Part shown: positions 16,337 to 18,723 of the stretch, in pieces
Position numbering within the stretch: the stretch's first letter is position 1
Layout: every line of letters begins with the position of its first letter
DNA from: Halorubrum salinum
GTDB taxonomy: Archaea > Halobacteriota > Halobacteria > Halobacteriales > Haloferacaceae
Assembly: GCF_024494575.1 (NCBI RefSeq)
Contig: NZ_JANHDO010000002.1
Span: 1-64,000 of the forward strand
Direction of reading: 5' to 3'
DNA length: 64,000 bases
Notes under the pieces: generated by a model
What the model was told of the DNA's origin: nothing
Databases searched by the model: none
The model's input: only the letters and a program-made list of their open reading frames with translations
Made by a program: the position numbers and the translations under genes

Positions 16337-16669
16337 ATGGTCGAGGTCGGAACGGTCTACCTCGCAGTCATCGGCGTGCTGTTGCTCGCCGTGCTCGCAC
16401 TGGGACTCCGCGTCCTCGGCGATATCTTCAACGAAGCGAGGGAGCGTCACCGCCGGCGAAAATCTGGCGATCTGGAGTCGCACACCGAGGATGAGACGTC
16501 AGTCCCCGGTCCGTCAACATCGCCAGACGAAGCCGCGGACACCGAGAGGGAAACCGGGGAGCGCGACCGAGATGGTGCGTCGGTCCCGTGTCCCCGATGT
16601 GGCGCGATCAACGACCCGGCGTTCAGCTACTGTCGTCAGTGCGCGTCGCGGCTTCGACCTACGGGATGA
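16337..16669 (+). CDS. membrane-anchored zinc-ribbon protein (DUF7577-like)
   Basis: The product has 110 residues. One N-terminal helix (about 5-27) is followed by a charged linker of about 50 residues and a C-terminal zinc ribbon, CPRCGAIND then YCRQCASRL (CxxC twice). A GCATATCTA box lies about 27 bases before the ATG. It ends seven bases before the distal attachment repeat of the tRNA-Phe element, so it marks the outside border of that element. Confidence 0.8.
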   Translation: MVEVGTVYLAVIGVLLLAVLALGLRVLGDIFNEARERHRRRKSGDLESHTEDETSVPGPSTSPDEAADTERETGERDRDGASVPCPRCGAINDPAFSYCRQCASRLRPTG

Positions 16670-16676
16670 GTCACGT

Positions 16677-16699
16677 CCGCCTCCCCGATTTGAACGGGG
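16677..16699 (+). repeat. distal attachment-site copy of the tRNA-Phe 3' end
   Basis: These 23 bases, beginning CCGCCTCCCCGATTTGAACG, are identical to 18441-18463, which is the 3' acceptor and T-arm part of tRNA-Phe. It is a direct repeat in the same orientation as the tRNA copy. Such 3'-end duplications are left when a tyrosine-integrase element inserts in a tRNA gene. The sequence between the copies is treated as the element. Confidence 0.8.
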
Positions 16700-16739
16700 A
16701 ATAACCCAGAGAGCACACATCCTCACTCCGGCTGGTGTT

Positions 16740-16957
16740 CGGAGAAACACGAGCGAAACTGAACTCGAACACATTTCCCCGGCTGAAGCCAAAGACATGT
16801 ACCTGAACGATAGAAAAAACGGGGTATCGGAAACCACACTCGGCGGCTACCGTTATCGGCTCACAGTACCCATTCGCTGGAGCGAGAACGTCGCTCGACG
16901 ATATGAACGACCTCTCGGGGCGAAAGCTACACTCGGAAGAGCGACGACGGAACCCTA
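16740..16957 (+). pseudogene. degenerate tyrosine integrase (N-terminal SAM-like domain only)
   Basis: From 16752 one frame reads SETELEHISPAEAKDMYLND then RKNGVSETTLGGYRYRLT, very like the N-terminal SAM-like domain of haloarchaeal phage-type integrases. Around 16884-16888 the match moves to another frame (TSLDDMNDLSGRKLHSEERR), so at least one frameshift has occurred. The match stops where the histidine kinase 3' end begins, so the catalytic domain is missing. It lies immediately inside the distal attachment repeat, the normal place for an integrase. Not functional as read. Confidence 0.7.
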
Positions 16958-16977
16958 AGCCGATAACGACTCTCGGA

Positions 16978-18117
16978 CTACTCGACGCCTCTGAACTCGA
17001 AGCGCGCGCCGCCGGCCGCACTCTCGACGATCTCGACGTCCCAGCCGTGTATGGCAACGATGTCGGCCACGATCGCGAGGCCGTACCCGCTTCCAGTCCT
17101 CGAGTTGGTGTAGCCGGACTCGAACACGCGCTCTCGGTCGGCGACGTCGATGCCGGGGCCGTCGTCCTCCACGTAGAACCCGTCCTCGAGCGGGCCGACC
17201 CAGACGTGGACGTCCGCTCCTCCGTGTTCGATCGCGTTCCGGTACAGGTTCTCGAACACCTGCCCGAGGCGACTCGCGTCGGCGCGGACGGTCTGCTCGA
17301 CATCGACGTGTAGGGTCGCGTCGCCGACGTCGACGTTCTGCCAAGACGATTCGGCGAACGCCCCGAGCTCGATCGACGCGAGTTCGGTCGGCCGGTCGGT
17401 GTTGCGCGCCAGCGTCAGAAGGTCGTCGATCAGGACGTGGATCCGCTCGTGGGCCCGCTCAACGGCCCTAAGGTGCTCGTTGGTGTACTCCTGTTGTGCG
17501 AGTTCGAGCTGCCCCTCAGCGACGTTCAGGGGATTCCGGAGGTCGTGGCTAACGATGGTGGCGAACTCCTGGAGCCGATCGTTCTTCGCTTCGAGCTCCT
17601 GCTGTCGGACGATCATCTCGAGGTCCACTTCGACCATTCGCTTGAACTGCTGGAGGAGGTCGCGGTAGATTCCCTCGAACTCCCGCTCCTCATCGTCGAG
17701 GACGCAGATCGTCCCGAACACCGCGCCGCCGGGCCACTCGATGGGGTACCCGAGGTAGGACACCAGGCCAAACTCCTCTACATCCATGTTGTCCCGCCAG
17801 CGGTCGCTCTGCTGGGCGTCCGGGACGTGTAGCGGCTCCTGAGAGAGCACCACCTCTTCACAGTAGAGGCCGAGCATGTCCTCCGTCCCGCCGATCTCGT
17901 AGGGGTTCTCTGGGTTCCCGCTCGCCTCGAACACCTCGATGTACGGCGGGTCGATACGCATGATGAGCCCCGCCGGCACCTCGAAAATCTCGGCCGTGAT
18001 GTCGAGCAGTTGTTGCCACTTCTGTACGATGTCCTCCGGGATCTCGAGATCCTTTACCTCGGGGTACGGCCGGTCTGACGCCGTCCCACTCGATTCGCCG
18101 TCCGTTCCCTGAGGCAT
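16978..18117 (-). CDS. GAF-domain sensor histidine kinase
   Basis: The product has 379 residues. A GAF domain spans about residues 30-150 (YCEEVVLSQEPLHVPDA and YLGYPIEWPGGAVFGTICVL). A helix leads to HisKA with phospho-acceptor H191 in VSHDLRNPL, then the ATPase domain with ENLYRNAIEHGG (N box), EDDGPGID (G1) and RTGSGYGLAIV (G2). There are no membrane helices, so it senses a cytosolic signal. The ATG at 18117 follows a strong TATA (rc of TATATATTAAG, near 18139). No response regulator is adjacent. It is the only intact gene inside the tRNA-Phe element remnant. Confidence 0.88.
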   Translation of the reverse strand: MPQGTDGESSGTASDRPYPEVKDLEIPEDIVQKWQQLLDITAEIFEVPAGLIMRIDPPYIEVFEASGNPENPYEIGGTEDMLGLYCEEVVLSQEPLHVPDAQQSDRWRDNMDVEEFGLVSYLGYPIEWPGGAVFGTICVLDDEEREFEGIYRDLLQQFKRMVEVDLEMIVRQQELEAKNDRLQEFATIVSHDLRNPLNVAEGQLELAQQEYTNEHLRAVERAHERIHVLIDDLLTLARNTDRPTELASIELGAFAESSWQNVDVGDATLHVDVEQTVRADASRLGQVFENLYRNAIEHGGADVHVWVGPLEDGFYVEDDGPGIDVADRERVFESGYTNSRTGSGYGLAIVADIVAIHGWDVEIVESAAGGARFEFRGVE

Positions 18118-18302
18118 CCTACATAAGCGAGGTGAAGCGTATATATTAAGATGCGGCACCGTTCTCTTCGTCTGACTCCCCTGTGATACGCTAAATGTGA
18201 AGTACGAGACGGACGACGGCTCGACCGGAACACGCGTGGAACTGGGAGCATTTTCACTGCTCACGACTCGGTCGCTGCGCTCCCTCGTAGGTTCGCAGGA
18301 AA

Positions 18303-18405
18303 ATGCCGCCTCCCCGATTTAAAACGCGTGAGGCTCTCTCCGGTCGTCTCACTGTTCCCCGCTCGCTTCGCTCGCGGGGACGGGGGACAGCTCGATCTTC
18401 AATCG
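18303..18405 (-). pseudogene. broken second copy of the tRNA-Phe 3' half
   Basis: Bases 18303-18320 repeat 18 bases of the tRNA-Phe 3' end with its flanking A. Bases 18381-18401 repeat 21 bases of its T-arm/anticodon side (CGGGGGACAGCTCGATCTTC), followed by one mismatch. A 60-base foreign insert separates the parts, including the hairpin CCCCGCTCGCTTCGCTCGCGGGG. It cannot fold as a tRNA. It looks like an earlier or nested attachment duplication that was later interrupted. Confidence 0.7.
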
Positions 18406-18438
18406 GGACTAACAAATGCGGATCGCGCCGAAAAACTA

Positions 18439-18512
18439 TGCCGCCTCCCCGATTTGAACGGGGGACAGCTCGATCTTCAGTCGAGTGCTCTCCCAGTCTG
18501 AGCTAAGGCGGC
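18439..18512 (-). tRNA. tRNA-Phe (GAA)
   Basis: Read on the minus strand it begins GCCGCCTTAGCTCAG and ends GGGGAGGCGGC plus discriminator A. The anticodon stem CTCGA/TCGAG encloses CTGAAGA, anticodon GAA. The T-arm reads GTTCAAATC. It is intact. Its 3' end is the insertion point of the element lying to the left (attachment copies at 16677 and in 18303-18405). A CCTTTTGTC box (rc near 18539) may be its promoter. Confidence 0.95.
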
Positions 18513-18652
18513 TCGCACTCGGACCAACGCCGATTCGAGACAAAAGGATTTCGAAAGGCGGCAGGCGGATCGGGGGAACCGTACCGTCGACTCGCTTCAC
18601 CGTCTTCCGATCCGTTTCGCTGCTGCTCGCGGAGTTGCTCGCGCCGCAGAAG

Positions 18653-18723
18653 TGGGACCGCCCGGATTCGAACCGGGGTCACGGGCACCCAAGGCCCGGA
18701 GTATACCACTAACCCACGGTCCC
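18653..18723 (-). tRNA. tRNA-Pro (TGG)
   Basis: The minus-strand sequence begins GGGACCGTGGGTTAGTGG and ends CGGTCCC plus discriminator A. The anticodon stem CGGGC/GCCCG encloses CTTGGGT, anticodon TGG. The T-arm reads GGTTCGAATCC. A TATA-like GCTTTAGC (rc, near 18750) lies about 28 bases upstream of the mature 5' end. Confidence 0.95.

Follow-up and report, generated by a model that had tools for sequence, protein, structure and literature searches.

The window analysed here, a 64,000-nt stretch of Halorubrum salinum DNA, contains an intact tRNA-Phe gene embedded in a conserved gene order that runs from ferredoxin through cold-shock protein, membrane protein, zinc ribbon, a variable part, tRNA-Phe and tRNA-Pro to a helicase. 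This order is kept in about 40 congeners, which lack the kinase and the integrase fragment found in the window (Table 1), and in most congeners the DUF7577 zinc-ribbon gene sits between the membrane-protein gene and tRNA-Phe. The variable part measures between about 0.5 and 17 kb in different congeners, and its cargo differs widely between species, with a DoxX-like membrane gene, TAT-signal proteins and regulators among its genes, all names that were read from the sequences rather than taken from database hits. An Rfam scan of the region returned tRNAs as the sole matches.

Table 1. Features of the tRNA-Phe locus, in coordinates of the window.
Feature	Position	Strand	Basis or remark
Zinc-ribbon (DUF7577) gene, conserved left flank outside the element	16337..16669	+	Pfam; position kept in most congeners
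Distal attachment repeat (attL), exact 23-nt copy of the tRNA-Phe 3' end	16677..16699	.	Repeat search
Pseudogene, N-terminal quarter of an SNJ2-type integrase	16743..16977	+	Start codon lost, one frameshift, truncated
GAF-HisKA-HATPase_c histidine kinase, intact, 379 aa	16978..18117	-	Pfam
Outer (left) hairpin half of tRNA-tail unit	18244..18303	.	93% identical region in G065; near-identical module in L092
Rest of tRNA-tail unit (B type)	18304..18438	-	tRNA-Phe 3' half, T-loop hairpin insertion, spacer
tRNA-Phe (GAA), intact, original attachment site	18439..18512	-	ARAGORN, Rfam

The first-pass annotation had read the 1.8-kb interval at tRNA-Phe as a likely relic of an integrated plasmid or virus, delimited by an exact 23-base repeat of the tRNA 3' end and carrying a frameshifted N-terminal integrase fragment just inside the distal copy. 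Both of these observations were borne out. The other member of the repeat pair lies at 18441-18463, within a tRNA gene that is itself intact, as in a tRNA-targeted integrative element, and an exact 23-mer repeat inside 2 kb is far beyond chance. In the congener G019, the counterpart of the attL copy is 33 nt long and occupies the same place, ahead of an intact integrase.

The integrase fragment can be followed in two frames, namely SETELEHISPAEAKDMYLNDRKNGVSETTLGGYRYRLTVPIRWSENVA from 16743 and then DDMNDLSGRKLH...NPKPITTL, running to about 16977. Translated positions 16743-16895 share 63% identity with an intact integrase over 51 aa (66 bits), while the top score among 40 codon-shuffled control windows was 32 bits. 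A comparison with haloarchaeal integrases, which the annotation had proposed as a check, revealed SNJ2-type similarity: among 20 integrases compared, the nearest to the relic are the intact ones of G007 and G019 (63-64%, E 2e-18), the 18 others reaching at most 54%. These two carry SAM-like and Phage_integrase domains, and match the HHPV4, SNJ2 and HRPV9 integrases at 43-46% over at least 94% of their length; with Humcor2 included, the intact relatives match over most of their length at 38-46%. An integrase search of viral contigs gave no match, while phage records did match. The relic keeps only about the first 95 codons; the remaining three quarters or so of the gene are absent throughout the whole window, and no catalytic Phage_integrase domain was found in the relic or elsewhere in the window. 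The fragment is thus a pseudogene of an SNJ2-type integrase and not a working member, and with the catalytic half lost, the relic is unable to excise. Into the kinase region the integrase similarity extends only weakly (30%, 34.7 bits), and this stretch was disregarded, as it runs antisense to the conserved kinase C-terminus.

Related genomes present this tRNA-Phe site in intact, decayed and empty states. G007 and G019 harbor intact elements of 7.2 and 9.9 kb with tRNA-Phe 3' copies at their ends, and their geometry matches the window: an att copy, about 50-60 bp, and then an integrase pointing toward the tRNA. In G007, a minus-strand gene follows the integrase tail-to-tail, the arrangement also seen in the window. 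An empty-site variant, which the annotation had suggested looking for, was found in G012 (L071), where tRNA-Phe stands between the same conserved flanks with no repeat, integrase or kinase beside it; several further congeners are nearly or fully empty, and other sites are differently occupied. The intact elements (L073 5612-12732; L083 8762-18633) encode an integrase and a phage-type primase, and one of them also shows a weak match to a terminase small subunit, while the second has an HNH protein and a weak AbiJ-like match, a layout that recalls phage satellites. The right end common to G007 and G019 also lies at tRNA-Phe in G033, where a second relic of 2 kb and 45% GC (L062 2880-4925) contains no integrase and no convincing gene. 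In G011 (L084 8929-9254), the same right end terminates not at tRNA-Phe itself but at a spare copy of the tRNA-Phe 3' end; an A-type hairpin unit lies in between. Decayed forms thus recur at this site. The right end seen in these four genomes is missing in the window, so that no element DNA reaches the intact tRNA, and a tRNA-tail unit sits where it would be expected.

That the interval holds an intact GAF histidine kinase was likewise confirmed, since the GAF, HisKA and HATPase_c domains are complete by Pfam, the latter two placing the protein among the sensor histidine kinases; its longest open reading frame begins further upstream, at 18264. A search of 52 congeners gave best full-length matches of 40-44%, with about 20-45 paralogous kinase matches in each genome, and one of 392 genomes across the order reached at most 46%; neither search found an ortholog, and genome contigs gave no close relative. 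Viral contigs contained nothing similar, and plasmids yielded distant matches only. The kinase is missing at the tRNA-Phe locus in all relatives, and blastn of 40 relative loci gave essentially no kinase coverage apart from one 57-nt match. In composition the gene is host-like, with 64.5% GC overall and 86% at third positions, against 54% for the integrase relic and 47-50% for the intact elements. Its codon score (log2 host/element per codon) of +0.46 lies close to the host median of 0.59, whereas the integrase relic (-0.36), the intact integrase (-0.38) and all element genes score negative. A pan-genome study of Halorubrum ezzemoulense reports a comparable split, most integrase islands having 40-55% GC and transporter islands the GC of the core (PMC11078007).

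The description of the whole interval as one element relic stands for 16677-16977 and fails for 18244-18438. The latter stretch, which includes a third, imperfect copy of the tRNA-Phe 3' end (18306-18328 plus 18380-18405), is common to relatives without the element and without the kinase, and is a tRNA-tail hairpin unit, not element DNA. Such units, consisting of tRNA 3'-end copies and covarying hairpins at a spacing of mostly 105-165 bp, occur behind tRNA-Phe, on its left side, at 34 of the 40 loci. Fewer than 220 bp separate 57 pairs of neighbouring tRNA-Phe 3' copies, most of them 120-141 bp apart, and most of the loci have no adjoining integrase. The pattern is also present for tRNA-Pro and, according to an exact pattern search whose reversed control gave none, in other families of the order.

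In A-type units, the spacer folds as two hairpins, and an inverted T-arm copy pairs with the tRNA T-arm. When 26 hairpins were aligned, 24 of them from behind tRNA-Phe and two from behind tRNA-Pro, 95% of the cells paired and the covariation score was 0.409, compared with 0.164 after shuffling (0.409 was reached in 0 of 500 shuffles); sliding the partner strand destroyed the covariation. A T-T mismatch, read from the alignments, is conserved in the stem. A covariance model found the hairpin in 18 of 20 genomes, and 24 of 30 fetched loci lie directly 3' of a tRNA (Phe, Tyr, Ile, Leu, Ser, Gly, Arg, Lys, Met or Val), all except one of these repeating that tRNA's own 3' end. A second set, of 72 tRNA genes, is a biased sample in that nearly all are Phe and Pro; a 3'-end copy was present within 400 bp downstream in 41 of them and upstream in one. 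Tandem units (L061-L100; L146-L191) cover at least 11 tRNA types order-wide, and their T-arm sequence matches the adjoining tRNA. Some hairpins are situated, by coordinates, 130-144 bp from SNJ2-type integrase genes, a proximity that proves nothing alone because both sit at tRNA genes. Nothing significant emerged from the integrase and attP-side stretches of five free viruses with such integrases (best E 0.23), which leaves the idea that the hairpins represent the attP region of these viruses without support.

The exact repeat, the integrase fragment, the intact elements in G007 and G019 and the empty congeners together identify 16677-16977 as the left terminus of a decayed integrative element. 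For the locus as a whole, we consider it probable (roughly 80%) that an SNJ2-type element decayed at tRNA-Phe, that the kinase is separate, and that an older tRNA-tail unit lies between the kinase and the tRNA. An element of 7-10 kb, carrying an integrase and a phage-type primase to judge from its intact relatives, would have recombined with the tRNA-Phe 3' end or, alternatively, with a spare 3'-end copy behind the gene, either of which would have left the copy at 16677-16699. Subsequent deletions would have cost the element its catalytic integrase domain, its replication genes and its right end, and would also have taken the DoxX-like neighbour gene that relatives keep here. An ORF search detected no DoxX-like gene in the genome itself, with clear matches in the positive controls G012, G002 and G008, and the gene is also missing in G033, likewise a relic locus. 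We infer the deletion boundaries, since the window's own element was not found intact in any close strain. A point against this reading is the length of the attL copy, which at 23 nt falls short of the 33 nt in G019. Separate acquisition at this recombination hotspot is the probable origin of the kinase, which would have been retained as a working sensor kinase, and the stretch from kinase to tRNA would be the older tRNA-tail hairpin unit.

According to the first-pass annotation, the kinase would instead be cargo of the element that stayed when the other genes disappeared; in this reading, selection would have retained it. Its position between the attL copy and the tRNA fits such an origin, as do its placement a few bases from the integrase relic, tail-to-tail like another gene in G007, its absence at the locus in all relatives and the lack of an ortholog in 52 congeners. 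However, the kinase resembles the host in GC and codon usage and differs in both from the AT-rich elements and the relic, no kinase was recognised in the two intact elements, and the viral and plasmid searches turned up nothing beyond distant plasmid matches. The claim that the kinase is the surviving gene of the element is therefore not supported, and we regard a cargo origin as unlikely. Composition makes a separate entry the more likely history, by roughly two to one, but does not prove it, since elements can carry host-like cargo.

Less probable still is that array-to-array homologous recombination imported an already degenerate block, comprising att, integrase stub and kinase, from another haloarchaeon: array modules are alike between genera and could act as homology arms, and the widely varying cargo of the slot would agree with such exchange, yet no donor with such a block was found. 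We give very little credence to the notion that the 16677 copy is an ordinary member of a tRNA-tail array, next to an integrase fragment that arrived by chance or in another event. The abundance of tRNA-Phe 3' copies without an adjoining integrase would allow for it, but the 16677 copy has neither the hairpin spacer nor the AT that precedes array copies, and the integrase sequence following it is nearest to the integrases of this very tRNA-Phe site.

SNJ2-type elements sit at the 3' end of tRNA genes (PMC8371274, PMC7911831), and so do the intact relatives described here. In contrast to those elements, the window retains no more than a dead N-terminal stub of the integrase, and the intact relatives encode a primase; their scanned proteins included this primase, HNH and others and no recognised pleolipovirus Rep or spike. 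The window relic likewise has no Rep or spike/membrane gene and does not qualify as a pleolipovirus provirus. The elements of Haloferax gibbonsii LR2-5 (PMC7921747) share the tRNA 3' terminal repeats and an integrase near one end; unlike the window relic, they still carry their genes, and their integrase lies at the end with the complete tRNA. An element relic of this type is a known and ordinary kind. It nevertheless provides a clean decay case of a tRNA-targeted element, in which the intact and empty stages in sister species let the steps be followed.

The tRNA-tail unit class is more surprising. We tentatively suggest, at a little short of an even chance, that 18244-18438 belongs to an undescribed Halobacteriales repeat class, characterized by the 3' end of the adjoining tRNA, an inverted copy of its T-arm, a covarying hairpin with a conserved T-T mismatch and tandem arrays behind many tRNA genes, and perhaps serving as spare attachment sites where elements integrate instead of at the tRNA. 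The element end in G011, a single locus, suggests that tRNA 3' copies can serve as attachment sites. If so, they would be relevant to host tolerance of integration at tRNA genes, which are essential, and to the recurrent reports of partial tRNAs beside full ones in haloarchaea. In the non-subscription literature searched, we found no description of tRNA-tail arrays, only mentions of partial tRNAs (PMC7921747, PMC3119063, PMC3623002), so that the novelty of the arrays is unproven. The LR2-5 study also counts partial tRNAs directly adjoining full tRNAs and contains no analysis of them as repeats (PMC7921747). Like the SMR and PATE of Haloquadratum (PMC3119063), the units are small, gene-less palindromic DNA of about 100 bp, but unlike these they lie 3' of tRNAs, contain the T-arm of the adjoining tRNA and repeat its 3' end.

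Besides, many congeners contain 0.5-7 kb of inserted DNA between tRNA-Phe and tRNA-Pro, where the window has no insert (18652-18723), and tRNA-Pro is thus a second insertion hotspot.
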